Program-made: the position numbers and the translations under genes
Notes under the pieces: model-generated
What the model was told of the DNA's origin: nothing
The model's input: only the letters and a program-made list of their open reading frames with translations
The model's database searches: none
In this document: piece by piece, positions 4,378 to 34,564 of the stretch
How positions within the stretch are numbered: position 1 is the first letter of the stretch
Layout: every line of letters starts with the position of its first letter
Virus record (IMG/VR): IMGVR_UViG_3300042465_000618
Location: 1 to 34,564 of that record
DNA: 34,564 nucleotides
DNA from: a virus
Direction: 5' to 3' (one strand)

Positions 4378-5361
4378 ATGGCAAATTCAAAAATATCAGC
4401 ACTACCTTCAGCCGCCACGCCACTGGCGGGAACTGAGGTTTTTCCTGTTGTTCAAGGCGGCATAACAGAACAAGTGTCTGTTGCCAATTTAACCGCAGGC
4501 CGTAGTGTGTCTGCTTCTGGGTTGCTTGTTGACGCAAACTCAGCAACGGTTGCTGTCCGTATCACGCAACTTGGCGCGGGTAATGCTTTGCTAGTGGAAG
4601 ATTCTGCCAACCCTGATTCAACTCCCTTTGTAATTGATGCTAGCGGCAACGTGGTTGTTGGCGCTTTAACGCAAATGAGTGGATTTGGGCCACTGCAAGT
4701 TTTGGGGTCATCTGCTTTATTGTCTGCCATTGGGCAATTCTCAACCGATGCTACACCGCCTATCTTTTCTTTTAATAAATCAAGAAATGCATCGGTAGGT
4801 TCTGCAGCCACAATTGTTGCAAGCGGAGATGCACTTGGACAGATTCGGTTTTATGGAGCTGATGGCTCTCAATTTATTCGTGGGGCTGCAATTGCCGCAG
4901 AGGTAGATGGCACACCCGGCACAAGCGACATGCCCGGTCGTTTGGTGTTCAGCACTACTGCTGACGGTGCAGCATCACCAACTGCTAGATTTCGTCTTGA
5001 TTCTTCAGGAAATACTTTAAATGTTAGCGTAGGCGGTTTAGGTTATGGCACTGGTTCTGGCGGCGCTGTTACTCAAGGAACATCTCGCACTACTGGCGTA
5101 ACGCTAAACAAGACCAACGGTGCTATCACGTTATTTTCTGTTGCTGGTCTTGCAACTTTTCAAAGTTTCACCGTTACCAATTCAACCGTAGCGGCTACTG
5201 ATGTTGTTCATGTAACGCAAAAATCTGGCACTGATTTGTATCAGATATTTGTAACAGCTACTGCTGCGGGTAGCTTTCAGATAAGTTTTGCTACAACAGG
5301 CGGCATTACAGTTGAGCAGCCCGTGTTTAACTTCGCCGTTATCAAAGCAGTAACCGCATAA
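4378..5361 (+). CDS. Tail fibre/receptor-binding-type structural protein (shares both ends with the 26490 gene)
   Basis: A 327-aa protein of small polar and Gly/Ser/Thr residues, with beta-strand character throughout. Its N-terminus (KISALPSAATPLAGTEVFPV) and C-terminal ~105 residues (from GYGTGSGGAVTQ to NFAVIKAVTA) clearly resemble the two ends of the protein encoded at 26490-27707; the middle differs. That pattern is usual for tail fibre or tip proteins, where conserved ends mount and trimerise a variable part. The DNA is AT-rich like the preceding tailspike. No good Shine-Dalgarno is visible before the ATG (the leader reads AAGCAAAAAA), so translation may depend on the upstream gene 18 bp away or on an A-rich leader. 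No enzymatic motif is seen. It may be a second receptor-binding protein or a tailspike accessory; which one is not decidable here. Confidence 0.65.
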   Translation: MANSKISALPSAATPLAGTEVFPVVQGGITEQVSVANLTAGRSVSASGLLVDANSATVAVRITQLGAGNALLVEDSANPDSTPFVIDASGNVVVGALTQMSGFGPLQVLGSSALLSAIGQFSTDATPPIFSFNKSRNASVGSAATIVASGDALGQIRFYGADGSQFIRGAAIAAEVDGTPGTSDMPGRLVFSTTADGAASPTARFRLDSSGNTLNVSVGGLGYGTGSGGAVTQGTSRTTGVTLNKTNGAITLFSVAGLATFQSFTVTNSTVAATDVVHVTQKSGTDLYQIFVTATAAGSFQISFATTGGITVEQPVFNFAVIKAVTA

Positions 5362-5370
5362 AGGATAAAT

Positions 5371-5523
5371 ATGTACGTTGCAACTGTGACCCACGACACA
5401 CAATCCAACACGTTGGAAGCAACTTGGCTTGAACTTGTTAATGAAGAACTTAAAAGAATTAAATTCCGTAACTATTCCGCAGATCAAAAAAGAAGAATTT
5501 TGAACATCAGCTACTACAGCTAA
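5371..5523 (+). CDS. Small hypothetical protein (50 aa)
   Basis: An ATG at 5371, preceded by AAGGAT at a sensible distance, opens a 50-codon frame ending in TAA at 5521-5523. The protein starts MYVATVTHDTQSNTLEATWL and is rich in Glu, Lys and Arg in its second half (ELKRIKF, ADQKRRILNI), without a membrane segment or signal peptide. It fills the gap between the fibre-type gene and the next small gene, only 9 and 1 bp away respectively. I do not recognise a family. The tight packing and ribosome binding site favour a real gene. Confidence 0.6.
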   Translation: MYVATVTHDTQSNTLEATWLELVNEELKRIKFRNYSADQKRRILNISYYS

Positions 5524-6124: not shown

Positions 6125-6357
6125 TGATGGAGTCTGATTTTATGTCGTCGAACAATGAGATCAGCCTTGTTAAATACGGCGTGCTCTGGCAAAAAGTCCA
6201 AGACATGGATCGCAAGGTTGACAAATTAGAGCGCAACATCGAAGAGCTTCTGGCCTTGGCCAACAAGTCCAAAGGCGGTTTCTGGCTTGGAATGTCTATC
6301 GTTTCAGGCGTCTCGGCATTTATTGGTTTTTTCTTAAATTACTTTAAAGGCCAGTGA
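6124..6357 (+). CDS. Coiled-coil plus C-terminal membrane-segment protein, XhlA-like lysis accessory
   Basis: A 77-aa protein with a charged helical region (about residues 20-48, VQDMDRKVDKLERNIEELLAL) followed by one hydrophobic segment (about 53-72, FWLGMSIVSGVSAFIGFFLNYF). This layout matches haemolysin XhlA-type and similar phage proteins placed just before the endolysin, which sit in the inner membrane and help holin action. Three starts are possible: ATG at 6124, ATG at 6127, and ATG at 6142, which has GGAG nine bases upstream. The stop shares a base with the endolysin start (TGATG). It may serve as a holin or as an accessory to the holin-like protein at 6734. Confidence 0.65.
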   Translation: MMESDFMSSNNEISLVKYGVLWQKVQDMDRKVDKLERNIEELLALANKSKGGFWLGMSIVSGVSAFIGFFLNYFKGQ

Positions 6358-6737
6358 TGTACACGCTCGGCGCACGATCTAAAACAAGGCTCAAAGGTGT
6401 TCACCCTGACCTCATTAAAGTCGTGACGCGTGCCATTGAGATTACGACCGTAGACTTCACCGTGCTTGAAGGCTTGCGCACCCCAGAGCGCCAAAAAACA
6501 CTCATGGAGGCTGGTGCAAGTCAAACGCTCAACTCACGCCACATCACCGGCCATGCGGTTGATCTTGGGGCTTGGGTGGAAAACGAAGTGCGCTGGGATT
6601 GGCCGCTGTATCACAAGATCGCGGCAGCCATGAAAGAAGCCGCCAAGCAGCTTGATATTGCTGTTGAATGGGGCGGCGACTGGCGAAGTTTTAAGGATGG
6701 CCCACATTGGCAATTATCAAGAAAGACACACCCATGA
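6357..6737 (+). CDS. Endolysin: M15-family L-alanyl-D-glutamate/D-Ala endopeptidase
   Basis: A 126-aa zinc peptidase of the VanY/T5-endolysin type that cuts peptidoglycan stem peptides. The M15 signature SxHxxGxAxD is intact at residues 60-69 (Zn ligands His62 and Asp69), and FKDGPHW near 112-118 supplies the third ligand His117 and the catalytic acid Asp114. There is no signal peptide, so release should depend on the neighbouring holin. The ATG at 6357 overlaps the previous TGA by one base; a GTG at 6354 is also in frame but less likely. The last codons overlap the next gene by 4 bp (ATGA). Confidence 0.92.
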   Translation: MYTLGARSKTRLKGVHPDLIKVVTRAIEITTVDFTVLEGLRTPERQKTLMEAGASQTLNSRHITGHAVDLGAWVENEVRWDWPLYHKIAAAMKEAAKQLDIAVEWGGDWRSFKDGPHWQLSRKTHP

Positions 6738-6931
6738 AGCCTTGGTATCAATCAAAAACCATCTGGATCAACGTCTTCGTTGCAGTCTTGGCGGCGTTTG
6801 AGGCTGTGACCGGCCTGTTGCAGCCAATCGTTTCTGCCAACATTTACGCCGTTATTGCCGTAAGCTTGCCAGTCATAAACGCTGCGCTGCGCATCATCAC
6901 GACTCAGACGCTAACGGCATCCAGCAAGTGA
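6734..6931 (+). CDS. Putative holin, two membrane segments (65 aa)
   Basis: The start at 6734 gives an ATGA overlap with the endolysin gene; the open frame extends further upstream, but this ATG fits the coupling pattern. The 65-aa product begins MKPWYQSKTIWIN and has two hydrophobic helices, about residues 10-30 and 40-58, joined by a short turn. Its small size, two membrane segments and place between endolysin and spanin genes fit a class II-type holin. The XhlA-like protein upstream is an alternative holin; the pair may act together. Confidence 0.75.
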   Translation: MKPWYQSKTIWINVFVAVLAAFEAVTGLLQPIVSANIYAVIAVSLPVINAALRIITTQTLTASSK

Positions 6932-7383
6932 TGGCGCTGCTTTGGCGTTATGGCCTGTTTGCCGGGTTTTTGCTGGCTTTGGGTGTATGGCACTTGGCAG
7001 ACAAGAGCAAGGCCGTGGACGACGCCCTAGAGCTTATGCGTGGCGAATACATTGTCGCAGCACTGGTGGCCAGCGAGTCAGCCCGTCAGAAAGAAATCGC
7101 CCTCAACCTTTCAGTAGAAAGCGCCAAAAATGCAGCAGCCATCCGTGAAAAAACTTTATTGGCCGATGCTGGCCGTAGCCGCGCTGCTGCTGACCGGCTG
7201 CGCGACGACCTCGCCACAGCTCGCGTTATCCTGCCCGGCCTTACCCGCGCCGCCGTTGAGCGTTACGCCGATGACGCCAGTATCGTATTCAATCAATGCG
7301 TCAACGAATATCGAGACATGGCGGCTCAAGCTGACCAACTCGCTAACGACCGGCAAACCCTGATTGACGCTTGGCCTCGGTAA
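6931..7383 (+). CDS. Rz: Rz-like inner-membrane spanin
   Basis: A 150-aa protein with one N-terminal membrane anchor (about residues 3-21, LLWRYGLFAGFLLALGVWHL), then a long charged helical periplasmic region rich in Ala, Arg, Glu and Asp. This is the standard layout of an i-spanin, which joins an outer-membrane lipoprotein to fuse both membranes at the end of lysis. ATG 6931 shares a base with the holin stop (TGATG); GTG 6928 is an alternative. A lipoprotein gene lies entirely inside it in another frame (7130-7363), which is decisive for the Rz/Rz1 call. Confidence 0.85.
   Translation: MALLWRYGLFAGFLLALGVWHLADKSKAVDDALELMRGEYIVAALVASESARQKEIALNLSVESAKNAAAIREKTLLADAGRSRAAADRLRDDLATARVILPGLTRAAVERYADDASIVFNQCVNEYRDMAAQADQLANDRQTLIDAWPR
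7130..7363 (+). CDS. Rz1: Rz1-like outer-membrane lipoprotein spanin, nested inside Rz
   Basis: A 77-aa frame wholly within Rz, shifted by +1. It has a lipoprotein signal: Lys-containing start, hydrophobic core LYWPMLAVAALLLTGC and lipobox LTGC with the acceptor Cys at residue 24. The mature part is Pro-, Ser- and Thr-rich, as expected for an o-spanin. ATG 7130 is the assigned start; a GTG five codons later would give a more compact signal peptide (VKKLYWPML). Both genes end within 20 bp of each other. Nested Rz/Rz1 pairs are known from lambda; their coding in two frames here is seen directly. Confidence 0.85.
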   Translation: MQQPSVKKLYWPMLAVAALLLTGCATTSPQLALSCPALPAPPLSVTPMTPVSYSINASTNIETWRLKLTNSLTTGKP

Positions 7384-14978: not shown

Positions 14979-15164
14979 ATGATGACCCTAGAACAGATCA
15001 GACTCGCGCTTTCAGACCGAATGCCCAAAAAGGTAGCGGATGTTACCGGCATCCACTACAACACCATTCGCAAGGTGCGAGATGATCCAAACGCCAACCC
15101 AACTCATAAAGTCCTGCAAGCCCTGAGCGACTACCTCGAAAGCCGTAAGGTCACACATGGCTGA
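14979..15164 (+). CDS. Small HTH DNA-binding protein, Cro-like position (61 aa)
   Basis: A 61-aa protein; residues ~16-50 (KKVADVTGIHYNTIRKVRDDPNANPTHKVLQALSDYL) form a helix-turn-helix of the lambda-repressor/XRE type, with the recognition helix around HYNTIRKVR. AAAAGG precedes two tandem ATG codons (14979, 14982). As first gene of the rightward arm, facing the leftward operon, it sits where Cro-like switches are found. Its stop overlaps the primase start by 8 bp. It may repress the divergent promoters, or act with the origin. No CI-like partner is seen. Confidence 0.75.
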   Translation: MMTLEQIRLALSDRMPKKVADVTGIHYNTIRKVRDDPNANPTHKVLQALSDYLESRKVTHG

Positions 15165-17172
15165 CTTAAGCAATATCCTCGGTGGCCCATGGGCGCCATC
15201 ACCAGAGAAAAGAGTTGCACCACCAGAGGCGCAGCTTATTGATGCCATGCGAGCAGCGGGGCTTGAGCCACCCGACGAGATCCACATGGACGGCAAGATT
15301 CATCGCTTCAAGTCAGGCACAAAGGGATCGCCAGGACACGGCGACAAACCCGGCTGGTATTTGGTATTTGGCGACGGCATACCGGCTGGCCGCTTCGGTT
15401 GCTGGCGAGCAGGCATGGAAGTGATGTTTCGAGCCGACATTGGTAGAAAGCTCACTCAAACCGAGGAAATGGTCAACGTCCGGCGCATGACCGAGGCCAA
15501 AGCCTTGCGAGATGCAGCCTTGGAGCGCCAGCACCAAGTGGCCAGTGAGACAGTTGAAAAAATCTGGACAACAGCCAATCCAGCCAGCGCAGAGCACCCC
15601 TATTTAGCTAAGAAAGGAATCGATGTGCATGGCGCACGAATCACAGGAGACGGTCGACTGGTGCTGCCACTCTACGACCAAGACGGCACACTGGCCACCC
15701 TGCAATACATTGACCACGAAGGCGGCAAGCTCTACCATCCCGGCGGTCAGACAGGTGGTAAGTTTTGGATGGTAGGCACAACGGATGAACCCGGCACGAT
15801 CTTTATTGCCGAAGGCTTTGCAACCGCAGCCACCATCCATGAAACCACCAATAGGCCAGTCGTGGTGGCTTACAGCGCCAGCAATTTGGTTCCGGTCACT
15901 GGCACACTCCGAGAGATGCACGGCGCAACCCAAGACATCGTAATCGTGGCAGACCATGACCAAAGCGGCGTAGGCCAACGATACTCAGAGCAGGCCAGTG
16001 CCAAGTACGGCGCACGCATGGTTATGCCTCCGATACTCGGTGATGCTAATGATTATGCCCAAGCTGGACACGATCTGGCTGGTTTGCTTATGCCAATCAA
16101 AGATGACTGGCTGATTCCAGCAGACGACTTCTGCGCACAGCCAAGCCCCATCAGTTGGCTGGTCAAACGCTGGATTCAATCTCAGGCGCTGGTCATGGTT
16201 CACGGCCCTAGCGGTGGCGGCAAGACCTTTGTAGTGCTCGACTGGTGTCTGCGCATGGCCAGCGGCATTGAGGACTGGGCAGGTCATAAGGTCAGGCCCG
16301 GTAACGTGGTGTATTTGGCCGGCGAAGGCCACCACGGTCTGCGCGGCAGGGTGGCCGCTTGGAAGCACCACAACCAAGCCGGTAAGCTCAATATGTGGCT
16401 CTCCAAGGACGGATGTGACCTCAACACCCCAACCGGCTACCTCAAAGTGGTAGAGCAAGTCCGGATGCTACCCAATCGGCCAGATGCTATTGTGGTTGAC
16501 ACCCTGCACCGATTCTTGTCTGGCGACGAGAACAGCGCCCAAGATGCCAAGACAATGCTGGACGCCTGCAACGCCCTGATGATGGAGTTCAACTGCTCGG
16601 TGATCCTGGTGCATCACACTGGAGTCAGCGAAGAAGCACAGCACCGAGCACGAGGCTCATCAGCTTGGCGCGGCGCTCTGGACATTGAAATAAGCATCGT
16701 CCCCGGCAAGGACGACCAGCCCATGCAGATCGTGCAACGCAAGAGCAAAGATGCTGAAATGCCAGAAACCATCTTCGTTAACTTGGAGCAAGTCACCATT
16801 CCCGGATGGTATGACGAGGACAACCAACCCGTCACCAGTGCCGTTGTTGTGCAAGCCAAGGCTCCAACATCAGCCAAGAAAGACAGCAAGATTGACAACC
16901 ACCGAAAGACATTTGAGAACGCTTGGTGGGCATCTGGAGCCGAAGAACGCAACGGCTATCCATATCTTAGCCGGTCAGCAATGATGGATTATTTGGTCCA
17001 AAAACTAGCCGTCAGCGAAACCTCAGCCAAGCAATACATCAAGCCAAGCGTCCCCGGAAAGCCAATCGCCGATATGCTGACAGCTCAAATTATCGAAGCC
17101 TTTGAGCATGGATGGATCGTCATTGACAGCACTCAGGCCAGCGCAATGCTCATTAGAAAGTCAGTTCAATGA
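15157..17172 (+). CDS. Primase-helicase: Toprim domain plus RepA-type AAA helicase
   Basis: A 671-aa replication protein. The N-terminal ~110 residues include a basic region resembling zinc-free primase leaders; the Toprim domain has IFIAEGFATA (Glu219) and VIVADHDQSG (Asp266, Asp268). The helicase part is RecA/RepA-like with Walker A GPSGGGKT (350-357), Walker B IVVDT (445-449) and VHHTG near 485-489. The C-terminal ~130 residues look like a winged-helix-type segment. Such proteins make primers and unwind DNA; with no phage polymerase present, host polymerase III would do synthesis. The candidate origin begins 3 bp after its stop, an arrangement that links gene and site. Confidence 0.88.
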   Translation: MADLSNILGGPWAPSPEKRVAPPEAQLIDAMRAAGLEPPDEIHMDGKIHRFKSGTKGSPGHGDKPGWYLVFGDGIPAGRFGCWRAGMEVMFRADIGRKLTQTEEMVNVRRMTEAKALRDAALERQHQVASETVEKIWTTANPASAEHPYLAKKGIDVHGARITGDGRLVLPLYDQDGTLATLQYIDHEGGKLYHPGGQTGGKFWMVGTTDEPGTIFIAEGFATAATIHETTNRPVVVAYSASNLVPVTGTLREMHGATQDIVIVADHDQSGVGQRYSEQASAKYGARMVMPPILGDANDYAQAGHDLAGLLMPIKDDWLIPADDFCAQPSPISWLVKRWIQSQALVMVHGPSGGGKTFVVLDWCLRMASGIEDWAGHKVRPGNVVYLAGEGHHGLRGRVAAWKHHNQAGKLNMWLSKDGCDLNTPTGYLKVVEQVRMLPNRPDAIVVDTLHRFLSGDENSAQDAKTMLDACNALMMEFNCSVILVHHTGVSEEAQHRARGSSAWRGALDIEISIVPGKDDQPMQIVQRKSKDAEMPETIFVNLEQVTIPGWYDEDNQPVTSAVVVQAKAPTSAKKDSKIDNHRKTFENAWWASGAEERNGYPYLSRSAMMDYLVQKLAVSETSAKQYIKPSVPGKPIADMLTAQIIEAFEHGWIVIDSTQASAMLIRKSVQ

Positions 17173-17174
17173 AA

Positions 17175-17196
17175 GTTATCCACAGGTTATCCACAG
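17175..17196 (+). repeat. Tandem 11-bp repeat containing two DnaA boxes
   Basis: GTTATCCACAG is repeated perfectly in direct tandem at 17175-17185 and 17186-17196, so the two DnaA boxes are exactly 11 bp, about one helical turn, apart. The same 11-mer recurs at 17363-17373. Equal facing on the helix would favour cooperative DnaA binding. Confidence 0.9.
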
Positions 17197-17279
17197 AAAG
17201 AATTAAGGTAACAGGTTACGGTAACGTAAAAAAACGTTACGAATTTAAGGGGCAAAAGCATCGAATTACGGTAACGTAA

Positions 17280-17306
17280 CGTAATCCCCCCCTTAGGGGG
17301 ATTACG
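17280..17306. repeat. 11-bp inverted repeat (hairpin) inside the origin
   Basis: CGTAATCCCCC (17280-17290) and GGGGGATTACG (17296-17306) pair perfectly around a 5-nt loop CCTTA. Outside the stem GGTAAC (17270-17275) can also pair with GTTACC (17308-17313) across small bulges. No T run follows on either strand, so it is unlikely to be an intrinsic terminator. It may be a protein-binding palindrome or a single-strand priming structure. Confidence 0.85.
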
Positions 17307-17391
17307 AGTTACCTTTCGTTGCTGCAAAATTTGGTATCCAAGGAAGAAAGTGAATTGGAAAAGTTATCCACAGGCAGAAAAGGAAATCAAA

Positions 17392-17610
17392 ATGCAGTCA
17401 GTAAACGAAACGCCCAGCTTTCACACTTGGCAAAAAGACAACCTTGTTGCCTTTTGCGAGAAATGCTATGTCGAGCTGTTGGCCCAGCAAAAAGCAAACG
17501 AGCAGCTAAGGCTCGACTTTAAAGATGCCATGAAGATGGCAAGAATGAACAACATGGCGCACAATACAAGCACAGCACAAAATCACACAATCACAAAGGG
17601 ATCAAAATGA
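17392..17610 (+). CDS. Small hypothetical protein downstream of the origin (72 aa)
   Basis: AAGGAA seven bases before ATG 17392 selects this start; a frame start at 17350 would lie in the DnaA-box region. The 72-aa product begins MQSVNETPSFHTWQKDNLVAFCEKCYVELL and continues as a charged helix (AQQKANEQLRLDFKDAMKMARMNN) with an Asn/Thr-rich tail. The helix may be a coiled coil. The third DnaA box lies 20 bp upstream, so its transcription may respond to DnaA. No family recognised. Overlaps the next gene by 4 bp. Confidence 0.6.
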   Translation: MQSVNETPSFHTWQKDNLVAFCEKCYVELLAQQKANEQLRLDFKDAMKMARMNNMAHNTSTAQNHTITKGSK

Positions 17611-17744
17611 AAACAATTTTTAGATTAGGTTTGTACTTTGCAGCCGTGGCGATCATGGCCGCTGCTCCGATGCTGGTGGCTGGGATTGTGATGGTTGGCT
17701 TTGCCATCTATCACGCGATGACTTGGGATAAGCAGGATGACTGA
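17607..17744 (+). CDS. Tiny membrane protein (45 aa)
   Basis: ATG 17607 overlaps the previous stop (ATGA), and its TGA at 17742-17744 overlaps the methyltransferase start by 8 bp. The 45-aa product is MKTIFRLG followed by a long hydrophobic stretch (about residues 9-36, LYFAAVAIMAAAPMLVAGIVMVGFA) and a short acidic end (WDKQDD). The segment could span the membrane once, or fold as a short hairpin at the Pro. It resembles no family I know. Similar in style to the two tiny membrane proteins at 8618-8913. Confidence 0.6.
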   Translation: MKTIFRLGLYFAAVAIMAAAPMLVAGIVMVGFAIYHAMTWDKQDD

Positions 17745-18918
17745 AAAAACCCATAACCCTGCCGACAAGGTCCAGCGATGGTCTATCGACAAGCTGGTGC
17801 CTTATGCTCGCAATGCCAGGACGCACTCGGATGAGCAAGTGGCTCAGATTGCGGCCAGCATCAAAGAGTGGGGCTGGACAACTCCCGTCTTGGTGGATGA
17901 GCAGGGAAGCATCATTGCCGGCCACGGGCGCACGTTGGCCGCACAGCGCCTGCAAATGACCGAGGTGCCAGTCATGGTGGCCAAAGGATGGAGCGATGCC
18001 AAGAAGCGGGCTTACATCATTGCTGACAACAAGCTGGCGCTGAATGCAGGCTGGGACAACGAGATGCTGGCGCTCGAGCTGGGTGAGATTGGTGATCTGG
18101 GCTTTGACTTAGATTTAACTGGTTTTACAGCAGAAGAGATCGCGGCGCTGATGCCTGAGCAGATTGAACCTGGCTTGACAGATGAGGATGCGGTGCCAGA
18201 AGTGCCAGAGCAACCAGTCACTGTGCTTGGCGATGTTTGGATACTTGGTCAACATCGACTGATGTGTGGAAGCAGCACTGTCTTGCATGACATTGAAAAA
18301 CTGATGAATGGTGTTTCTCCTGATTGCATACACACCGACCCGCCCTATGGTATGAATGCCGTCAGCAATTCGTCTGTTTTAAAAAAGAATTACAAGATTG
18401 ATATTCTTGGCGATGACACACCAGACGTTGCTAAAGATGCTTTCCGTTTGATTTACGGCATGTGGCCAGATGCAAAGCAGATCTGGTGGGGAGCAAATTA
18501 TTATTGTTCCGTCTTGCCAGACAGCGAATGCTGGCTTGTGTGGGACAAGAACAATGGGCAATCAGACCAAACCGACTGCGAACTGGCATGGGCAAACTTC
18601 CGCAGCGTTGTTCGGCAGTTTACGCTTGCTTCAGAAAAAACTAATCGCGTTCACCCAACCCAGAAGCCGGTGGCGCTGATGGAATGGATATTGAAACGGT
18701 TCAACTTGTCAGTGAAAACAGTTGCTGACTTTTTTGGTGGATCTGGCTCGACATTGATAGCGGCAGAAAAACATGGCGCTCAAGCCTTCATCATGAAGTT
18801 TGATCCAAGGTTCGTCGACGTGATTGTCAAACGCTGGCAAGACTTCACAGGCAAAATTGCTACACACGCCGAGACCGGCAAGACTTTTTCGGAGGTTCAC
18901 AATGACAGCAAAACTTGA
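17737..18918 (+). CDS. ParB-like domain fused to a DNA methyltransferase (N6-A or N4-C)
   Basis: A 393-aa two-domain protein. Residues ~15-110 form a ParB/Srx-like domain (LVPYARNARTHSDEQVAQIAASI, then IIAGHGRTLAAQ at 59-70). Residues ~160-390 are a methyltransferase: catalytic DPPY at 201-204, HPTQKP at 306-311 and the AdoMet motif FFGGSGST at 332-339, in the beta-class order. The end (WQDFTGKIATHAETGKTF) also fits this phage family. No restriction partner is near, so it is an orphan methylase, perhaps for protecting phage DNA or for packaging, as it lies directly before the terminase genes. Specificity cannot be read. Confidence 0.9.
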   Translation: MTEKTHNPADKVQRWSIDKLVPYARNARTHSDEQVAQIAASIKEWGWTTPVLVDEQGSIIAGHGRTLAAQRLQMTEVPVMVAKGWSDAKKRAYIIADNKLALNAGWDNEMLALELGEIGDLGFDLDLTGFTAEEIAALMPEQIEPGLTDEDAVPEVPEQPVTVLGDVWILGQHRLMCGSSTVLHDIEKLMNGVSPDCIHTDPPYGMNAVSNSSVLKKNYKIDILGDDTPDVAKDAFRLIYGMWPDAKQIWWGANYYCSVLPDSECWLVWDKNNGQSDQTDCELAWANFRSVVRQFTLASEKTNRVHPTQKPVALMEWILKRFNLSVKTVADFFGGSGSTLIAAEKHGAQAFIMKFDPRFVDVIVKRWQDFTGKIATHAETGKTFSEVHNDSKT

Positions 18919-19351
18919 AAAACCAATTACTAAAAGCAAAAAGACAAAAATCGTGCCAGCCAAAGCGCACGACCCAAACTACGGCGGCGCTCGTGAAGGC
19001 GCTGGCCGAATGGCATTTGAGCCAACCGATGCCGAGCGCAAGCAGGTGGAAGCCTTGTCTGGCTACGGCTTGCCCATCGATCAGATCGCTGTGCTGGTGC
19101 GCGATGGCATCCACGTTGATACGCTTAGGTCGCACTTTAGCAACGAGCTGATCTCCGGCAAAGCCAAGGCCAACGGACAGGTAGGGAAAACCCTATTCCA
19201 AAAGGCAATGGGTGGCGACACGACCGCAATGATCTGGTGGAGCAAGACACAGATGCGCTGGGCAGAAACCCAGAAGCACGAGCTGACCGGCGCAGACGGC
19301 GCACCTTTGGAGTTTGCCAAGATCGAACGGGTGATCGTCAAGCATGGGTAA
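18902..19351 (+). CDS. terS: Terminase small subunit (probable)
   Basis: The start at 18902 has GGAGG six bases upstream; a longer in-frame start lies deep in the methylase gene. The 149-aa product has a basic N-terminal tail (KPITKSKKTKIVPAKAHDP), a GGAREGAGR motif, and a helix-turn-helix (RKQVEALSGYGLPIDQIAVLVRDGIHVDTLRSHF), followed by helices that could form the oligomer core. It overlaps the large subunit by 8 bp. Position and the DNA-binding domain support a role in recognising the packaging site; sequence alone would allow another HTH protein. Confidence 0.8.
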   Translation: MTAKLEKPITKSKKTKIVPAKAHDPNYGGAREGAGRMAFEPTDAERKQVEALSGYGLPIDQIAVLVRDGIHVDTLRSHFSNELISGKAKANGQVGKTLFQKAMGGDTTAMIWWSKTQMRWAETQKHELTGADGAPLEFAKIERVIVKHG

Positions 19352-33200: not shown

Positions 33201-34564
33201 ATGGTTCAACCAATCAACTACATGGCGCAGATTCCGCAGCCAAATATTGGCGCCAGTCTGCTCAGTGGCTTGCAGATCGGCGCTGGCATTCAGGATATGC
33301 AAGCCAAGCGGGTGGCTGCCGAGCAAGCGCAACAGGCCAAGCAGCAATTTGCCACCGACCTGCAAGCGGCGCAAGCCAACGGCGGACAACAAGCATGGCT
33401 GAACATGATCGGCAAGTATCCGCAATTCCGCGAAGCCTTCGGCGATGTGCGAAAAGGTCTTGGTGAAGAACGGGTCAAAAACCAATTCACCAGCGGCTTT
33501 GATGTATCAACCGCGTTGGAAAACCAAAAGCCAGAAGTGGCAAAGCAAAAGCTGCAAGAGTTGATTGACGCTAACAGGAACGCAGGCGAATCAACCGGCA
33601 TCTATCAGCAAGCATTTGACTTGATTGACTCTGGCGATATTAAATCGGCGCAGGCAGGCATCAACAAAGCCCTGTCAATTCTGGACCCAGATCGGTTTGA
33701 GAAAACGGTCAAGGCCCAAAGCACGGCAGCCAAAGCCCCGTCTGAATTAATTGATGCCAAAGCAAAAGCCGACAAAGCCGTGGCAGACGCCACAACAGCA
33801 CAGGCCACAGCCACGAACGCGGCAGAAAAGGCCGCAGCAGATGCTGCTCTGGCGTCAGCTAATGCTGCAAAAGCGAAAGTCGAAGCCGACTTTGCATTGC
33901 CACTGCAACAAGCTGGACTCAACAAAGCCAATTGGGACATTACCAATCTGAAAAGCCAGATCAATGATCGATCCGAGCGCCTCGGACTGGACAAGCAGAC
34001 CACGGCGGCAACTGTTGCTGAAAAGCTCTCGAGCATTCAAAAGAATTTGAATGAACTGCCAGCCGACACCCGCAAGCTGATTAACGATGCGGCGGTTAAC
34101 GCTGCCGCATCGAAACAATCGGCGTCTCAATTTAGCGATCTGGCCAAACGACTGGACGCGGCAGGCGGTGGTTACGGCGTGGCTTCCAGCGCCTCAGACT
34201 TTTTGAAAAAGAGCGCAGGCTTTCAAGGTGGAATGACTCAGCTTCGCCAAGAATACACAAGACTGCGAAACTCAGCGGCCATCAAGTCACTGCCTCCCGG
34301 CCCAGCGACGGACAAAGACATTCAGCTTATCTTTCAGGGATTCCCCGGAGAAAATGCATCCGCCACAGACCTAGCAAGTTTCTTGCGCGGCATGGCCAAG
34401 ATTCAAGATATTGATGCAGCGGTATCTAACGCCAAGACCGATTGGCTGGCCAGCAACAACGGCACGCTTACCCGCGCTAAGAATACCTTTGTGGCTGGCG
34501 ACTACGCAGCCAAGCCGGGCGAGACATTTAACGATTTTGCGCAGCGCATTGTTGGCGACGTTTC
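33201..34564 (+). CDS. P22 gp20-like DNA ejection protein, 5' part (continues at 1-257)
   Basis: Starts MVQPINYMAQIPQPNIGASLLSG at 33201, and runs off the window end without a stop. Joining base 34437 to base 1 keeps the frame and gives 497 aa with TAA at 255-257. The protein is Ala/Gln-rich and mainly helical (about residues 170-225: KAPSELIDAKAKADKAVADATTAQATATNAAEKAAADAALASANAAKAK), with no membrane segment or catalytic motif. Length and position agree with P22 gp20 (471 aa), an internal protein released with the DNA. Any annotation of this contig that is not circularised will miss or truncate this gene. Confidence 0.85.
   Translation, partial: MVQPINYMAQIPQPNIGASLLSGLQIGAGIQDMQAKRVAAEQAQQAKQQFATDLQAAQANGGQQAWLNMIGKYPQFREAFGDVRKGLGEERVKNQFTSGFDVSTALENQKPEVAKQKLQELIDANRNAGESTGIYQQAFDLIDSGDIKSAQAGINKALSILDPDRFEKTVKAQSTAAKAPSELIDAKAKADKAVADATTAQATATNAAEKAAADAALASANAAKAKVEADFALPLQQAGLNKANWDITNLKSQINDRSERLGLDKQTTAATVAEKLSSIQKNLNELPADTRKLINDAAVNAAASKQSASQFSDLAKRLDAAGGGYGVASSASDFLKKSAGFQGGMTQLRQEYTRLRNSAAIKSLPPGPATDKDIQLIFQGFPGENASATDLASFLRGMAKIQDIDAAVSNAKTDWLASNNGTLTRAKNTFVAGDYAAKPGETFNDFAQRIVGDV
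34438..34564. repeat. 127-bp direct repeat of the contig ends (right copy)
   Basis: This is the right-hand copy of the sequence at 1-127, with no mismatch. It should be trimmed from one end before the genome is treated as a circle. Joining 34437 to 1 restores a single uninterrupted gene for the gp20-like ejection protein. Confidence 0.97.

Follow-up and report, generated by a model that had tools for sequence, protein, structure and literature searches.

We propose that the gap directly behind the primase-helicase gene of this phage is its replication origin, where the C-terminal winged helix of the primase-helicase would read GGTAAC iterons and host DnaA would help in this clade, a reading in which we have high confidence. 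The window, by which we mean the whole 34,564-nt stretch that was analysed (one strand, 5' to 3'), corresponds to positions 1–34,564 of the IMG/VR record IMGVR_UViG_3300042465_000618. An earlier note had already taken the region for a replication origin, and this is strongly supported by the conserved anatomy of the gap, by its position and by its covariation with the replication protein. The evidence is sequence-based throughout, and the relatives are mostly metagenomic.

The window carries an exact 127-bp terminal repeat (1–127 = 34438–34564), giving a circle of 34,437 bp. This repeat probably reflects the k-mer overlap of an assembler on a circular map and not the real ends of the phage, because the terminal repeats in relatives measure 127 bp in two cases and 99 and 93 bp in others. 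Pfam and PHROG identify a P22-like portal, a coat protein, a terminase and tail proteins, and the window also encodes a Sak4-like annealing protein, a Cas4-type exonuclease, an SSB-like protein and a DEAD-type helicase. No DNA polymerase was recognised among the window proteins scanned, which is consistent with the suggestion in the earlier note that the host polymerase is used. A search by protein for clues to the host gave no close relative among 84,980 genome species; the distant matches were mostly metagenome-assembled contigs. Upstream of the gap, a small HTH gene (14979–15164, + strand; Cro/repressor-like, an ORF with a PHROG transcriptional regulator assignment) precedes and overlaps the gene for the 671-residue primase-helicase (15157–17172, +; Pfam/PHROG), the proposed initiator, and its product is a candidate autoregulator of the primase-helicase operon. 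The next gene downstream (17392–17610, +; 72 aa, ATG start, no PHROG match) is a flanking gene outside the proposed mechanism; its listed GTG start at 17350 would overlap the third DnaA box. Shortly downstream lies a ParB-like domain fused to a DNA methyltransferase (17737–18918). For the terminase small subunit the better candidate frame is 18824–19351, and the doubtful frame 18915–19148 was not used as evidence.

The gap extends from 17173 to 17391, between the primase-helicase stop (17172) and the ATG of the small ORF (17392). The earlier note had described three perfect DnaA boxes in one direction, two of them in an 11-bp tandem, two exact copies of TTACGGTAACGTAA and seven GTAAC/GTTAC motifs with a long hairpin right behind the primase-helicase gene, and all of these elements are present. 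The boxes, each a perfect TTATCCACA on the + strand, lie at 17176–17184, at 17187–17195 (11 bp after the first) and at 17364–17372, just before the next gene. The two exact copies of TTACGGTAACGTAA (17216–17229 and 17266–17279, both +) are the only ones in the window. The seven pentamers start at 17208, 17215, 17221, 17236, 17271, 17276 and 17308. The pentamer is common elsewhere, with 59 occurrences in the window; for the hexamer GGTAAC the gap is the only strong cluster, and no second one was seen in the window. A GTAAC cluster at 5068–5468 lies in and beside a tail-fibre gene, is not a GGTAAC cluster and was rejected.

Motif listing and the alignment of iteron types place the first iteron half at 17207–17240, on both strands. 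It comprises GGTAAC (17207–17212, +), GTTAC (17215–17219, −), GGTAAC (17220–17225, +), an A7 tract (17228–17234) and GTTAC (17236–17240, −). The second half is an extended hairpin (17270–17313, both strands; motif and hairpin listing), in which GGTAAC (17270–17275) and GTAAC (17276–17280) are followed by the stem and by GTTACC (17308–17313, −). The stem itself is a perfect 11 bp (17280–17290/17296–17306) closed by the loop CCTTA. As single-stranded DNA the gap folds better than 200 of 200 shuffles (z −4.1). Beyond the short A7 tract and at most 70% AT over 30 bp it shows no distinct AT-rich element of the kind expected for unwinding. The gap holds an array of short repeats, as in iteron-type origins, a cluster of TTWTNCACA boxes, as in oriC-like ones, and a stem-loop directly 3' of a fused primase-helicase gene, as in replicons of the pRN1/BIP-1 type.

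The primase-helicase consists of a Toprim_3 primase (residues 215–303) and an AAA_25, RepA-type helicase (residues 321–491; Pfam/PHROG), and the helicase part matches RSF1010 RepA (1g8y) with an E-value of 1.4e-5 in phmmer. By predicted fold, the C-terminal 97 residues (575–671, encoded at 16879–17169, +; mean pLDDT 96 in AlphaFold2) are a winged helix, the proposed iteron reader on the basis of covariation; fold comparison with the PDB lists winged-helix DNA-binding proteins with modest Z. The short helix ETSAKQY (621–627) appears to sit at the usual place of the recognition helix. Covariation marks Q626 and Y627 in this helix (codons at 17032–17037, +) as the main specificity positions, and V632 and P633 in the loop after it (codons at 17050–17055, +) as secondary ones. 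No family in Pfam or NCBIfam convincingly covers the C-terminal domain, no solved relative is convincing by sequence, and the winged helix gives no sequence match to the solved P4 alpha. P4 alpha is also absent among the fold matches listed for the winged helix, which leaves room for homology. In INPHARED (E 0.01), the domain occurs otherwise only in primase-helicase or repA-annotated phage proteins of the same kind, and in BFVD it is also carried by a Prim-Pol protein. Three loci (L086, L229 and L290) have Prim-Pol/PriCT_1 instead of Toprim_3, together with the AAA_25 helicase, the winged helix and downstream iterons, and the two versions represent a primase swap inside one replicon type. The replication gene of one further locus (L119:2587-4506) carries a LAGLIDADG-like domain, probably an intein or similar homing element.

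Close relatives provided 80 loci, and four further scans yielded 270 loci with both the C-terminal end and the gap. Iterons were typed by fixed pentamer counts, as a per-locus motif model blurred several of them; 219 of the 270 loci could be typed and 51 had no confident iteron. Pentamer typing mislabels one locus, L220, whose repeat is GTGACA. The close loci mostly keep the position of the gap, and most have DnaA boxes at the same spacing. Boxes and iteron positions are conserved among them, and this check, named in the earlier note, came out in favour of its proposal. Their iterons are GGTAAC in 36 loci (including the window), GGGAAC/GGAAC in 26 and AGGGGG in 18. An iteron array and a hairpin occupy the gap in most of the 270 loci while the iteron sequence varies, the types being GGTAAC, GGGAAC, GGGACA, GGTACN, GGTTCA and AGGGGG. 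Distant phages have GGTACA (Idiomarinaceae phage 1N2-2), GGTTCA (PB15 and XX1924) or GGGACA (MW202867 and CGphi29). Iterons of close relatives point towards the hairpin on its left and are inverted and point away on its right. In many relatives with long perfect stems the base of the stem often equals the iteron of that locus, and across different iterons the apex is repeatedly CTTTA or CTATA. Across the window and nine genome records the top cluster of the cognate iteron hexamer is the gap, with 4–11 copies per 300 bp, compared to at most two in any other listed 300 bp. A search for satellites with the origin but without the primase-helicase gave none; the six loci without the gene upstream were five chance matches and one contig end. 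In L057, about 280 bp (about 7010–7290) separate the primase-helicase gene from the origin boxes and the matching iterons are kept, and in L012 about 970 bp (about 6180–7152) lie between the gene and the box pair. To judge by these two loci, the origin seems to tolerate displacement from the gene.

The type of iteron follows the C-terminal domain. In the close relatives, residue 626 by itself is enough to assign the iteron type (80 of 80), with a mutual information of 1.53 bits that equals the full entropy, and along the primase-helicase mutual information is low and rises only in residues 601–671. Among the 219 typed loci, Q, M or L626 with Y627 goes with GTAAC (51 of 51), V626 with GGAAC (25 of 25), T626 with Y627 with GGAAC or GGACA (62 of 62) and Q626 without Y627 with GTAC (11 of 12). 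N626 without Y627 goes with G runs in 24 of 26 loci, these 24, as shown, all having D or E at 627, and K626 and some other backgrounds are mixed, with several iterons. On a tree of residues 1–570, iteron type and residue 626 each need 16 changes. Between GTAAC and GGAAC there are at least eight forced switches, and eight independent pairs all agree (p 0.008). A set fetched by the origin DNA pattern, which overlaps the first set, agrees in all 69 readable cases, and in a non-redundant set (80%, 69 loci) positions 632 and 626 lead. The Prim-Pol loci also obey the rule, with T626 beside GGACA and Q626 without Y627 beside GTACC. As the iteron type covaries with these C-terminal residues, it is very probable that the phage's own initiator acts at the iterons. 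The suggestion in the earlier note that they serve the phage's own replication protein thus receives strong support from comparative sequence data, and they, rather than DnaA, would form the core of the element.

Recombination of neighbouring sequence could mimic such covariation, and linked sites were tested for this reason. The gap adjoins the 3' end of the gene, and both might have been swapped jointly without any recognition. Near-identical upstream parts do carry different iteron types, and the AGGGGG type differs over the whole domain, as in a cassette swap. For GTAAC versus GGAAC, by contrast, neither the linked synonymous sites nor most domain residues follow the iteron. Here residues 626 and 633 each reach the full 0.98 bits and residue 632 reaches 0.76, compared to an average of about 0.1 bit at third codon positions, where only codon 626 itself (0.88) and codon 671, which adjoins the gap (0.62), stand out. 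L045 (GTAAC) and L032 (GGAAC) differ in residues 590–671 only by Q626V, S632A and P633T, so opposite iterons are possible with just three of the 82 domain residues changed. The same pairing of residue and iteron recurs with distant domains and with another primase, the iterons of L057 match although displaced, and the box pair of L012 is kept despite its distance. Joint swapping without recognition is a highly improbable explanation of the pattern, which probably reflects recognition of the iterons by the winged helix.

The DnaA boxes could instead mean that host DnaA is the initiator and that the iterons merely help or regulate. The three boxes are the only perfect copies of TTATCCACA in the window, where 0.15 are expected from dinucleotide shuffles and none of 100 shuffles reached three, so the equal boxes elsewhere that would have weakened the earlier note's proposal are absent; two of the three lie about a helical turn apart. 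They are perfect in 51, 53 and 56 of 60 relatives, respectively, and the variants of box 1 are mostly, though not all, at the free position of TTWTNCACA and thus inside this consensus. Consensus boxes in the gap number 108 in the GTAAC group and 70 in the GGAAC group, 116-fold and 81-fold denser than in the rest of the loci, and relatives whose whole sequence was searched have few perfect boxes beyond the gap. The GGACA group shows a 34-fold enrichment in the gap, of boxes that are mostly single and lie on the opposite strand. The same layout is free of boxes in the GTACC group, as it is in the distant phages 1N2-2, PB15, XX1924 and CGphi29, and the G-run group has at most one; the iteron array, by contrast, is present in most loci. 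With boxes lacking or at most single in these two groups, DnaA is dispensable to the design, and an origin driven by DnaA has a small chance of being the correct reading. The DnaA dependence proposed in the earlier note is plausible, given boxes that are both conserved and strongly enriched in the groups with GTAAC and GGAAC iterons. The distribution of boxes suggests that host DnaA is probably a clade-specific helper. In L070, L074 and L076, box 3 lies inside TTGACTTATCCACA, which is −35-like, about 190–230 bp after the primase-helicase stop and before the next gene. Box 3 may also act in transcription.

The gap might alternatively be a regulatory site for the flanking genes, such as an operator, a terminator or an antitermination hairpin. 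A pattern scan lists the hairpin as terminator-like, and box 3 precedes a gene; in relatives iterons and no T run come after the hairpin, and no promoter match exceeds shuffles. Moreover, the covarying protein is a replication enzyme, whereas the upstream HTH regulator does not covary: neighbouring proteins, this one included, fail to track the iteron type. As an iteron reader the HTH regulator was rejected, since L032 (GGAAC) and L045 (GTAAC) have identical copies. We regard a regulatory site as very unlikely. A pac or partition site for the terminase small subunit or the ParB-like methyltransferase is extremely unlikely. Both genes lie some 0.4–2 kb downstream, but no residue of the methyltransferase exceeds 0.68 of the iteron-type entropy, compared to 1.0 for residues 626 and 633, and phages with other genes downstream still have their iterons behind the primase-helicase gene.

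GC skew, for which the earlier note had expected a minimum near 17.2 kb, proved uninformative. The raw cumulative minimum of the window circle is indeed at 17,094, but removal of the linear trend shifts it to about 15.2 kb, the point at which gene direction switches, and most of nine relatives have their minimum away from the gap, its position not being conserved. We rejected GC skew as proof of an origin, as the switch of gene direction near 15 kb confounds it and relatives give inconsistent results.

From the anatomy, conservation, enrichment and covariation of the gap we infer how binding, melting, priming and the role of DnaA could be arranged at an origin read by the winged helix. The primase-helicase would bind the GGTAAC iterons via its C-terminal winged helix, with Q626 and Y627, together with residues 632–633, reading the bases that differ between iteron types. 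The opposed iteron groups around the A-tract and the hairpin would lead to assembly of oligomers, which would load the helicase ring, of RepA type, and open the duplex. The fused Toprim domain could then prime the exposed strands, possibly at the hairpin, and the host polymerase would extend the primers. Host DnaA may, in this clade, occupy the three flanking boxes and aid opening or recruitment of the replisome.

We also lean towards a wider reading, in which the winged helix and its iterons form a modular unit with a simple residue-to-base rule (626, 627 and 632–633), switched many times in populations of phages that otherwise resemble one another, and joined to two unrelated primases. Switches would proceed by two or three substitutions and also by cassette exchange. 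If true, switching may serve to discriminate, at the origin, between co-infecting phages or between their parasites or origin-directed nucleases. To our knowledge, few initiator–origin pairs are resolved to single residues and bases. The present set offers more than 200 natural matched pairs, with residues 626, 632 and 633 against GGTAAC/GGGAAC as the minimal comparison, and makes origin specificity switching and its driver directly testable. The presence of DnaA boxes beside a phage initiator in some clades only is a natural experiment on the use of DnaA by phages.

In the literature searched, a library with few subscription journals, we found no earlier description of this origin. Several known systems come close to it. 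The alpha protein of P4 is described as a fused primase-helicase-winged helix that acts on repeats at the origin (PMC4234260). The phage protein resembles it in having a Toprim primase, a helicase and a C-terminal winged helix, the last by predicted fold, in one polypeptide; it differs in the helicase, which is SF3 in P4 and AAA_25, RSF1010 RepA-like here, and in an origin that lies directly behind the gene and carries DnaA boxes. P4 also has a second iteron cluster, crr, whereas no second strong cluster that could be its counterpart was seen in the window. In pRN1, a small repressor gene is followed by the fused primase-helicase-winged-helix protein ORF904 and, directly downstream, an origin stem-loop that works when displaced, and a similar stem-loop was proposed for phage BIP-1 (PMC4234260). 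The small repressor gene, the fused protein and the stem-loop just downstream all recur here, but pRN1 combines Prim-Pol with an SF3 helicase and lacks iterons, while the window has Toprim, a RepA-type helicase and clear iterons; L086, L229 and L290, with Prim-Pol and AAA_25, stand between the two layouts. RSF1010 shares the RepA-type helicase, the iterons and hairpins as priming sites (PMC4234260; 1g8y), priming at the hairpin being a proposal here, but its RepA, RepB' and RepC are separate, compared to one fused protein with the winged helix as the proposed iteron reader. The RepA/ori modules of the PLE satellite and ICP1 Odn likewise show covariation of an initiator DNA-binding domain with its origin and repeated module swaps; origin swaps were tested experimentally there, and an origin-directed nuclease was proposed as a selective force behind the diversification (PMC8263062). 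That system involves a RepA_N protein on iterons of about 30 bp, a satellite and two specificity groups, compared to a phage initiator, at least six iteron types and covariation at single-residue resolution here. In the iteron-related domain of geminivirus Rep, residue changes in a short segment correlate with the iteron across many viruses (PMC10653810), although this is a different protein and mechanism, a rolling-circle Rep of ssDNA plant viruses. Compared to these systems, the novelty lies in how the domains are combined, in how many iteron types and switches between them occur, in the single-residue resolution and in the DnaA boxes.
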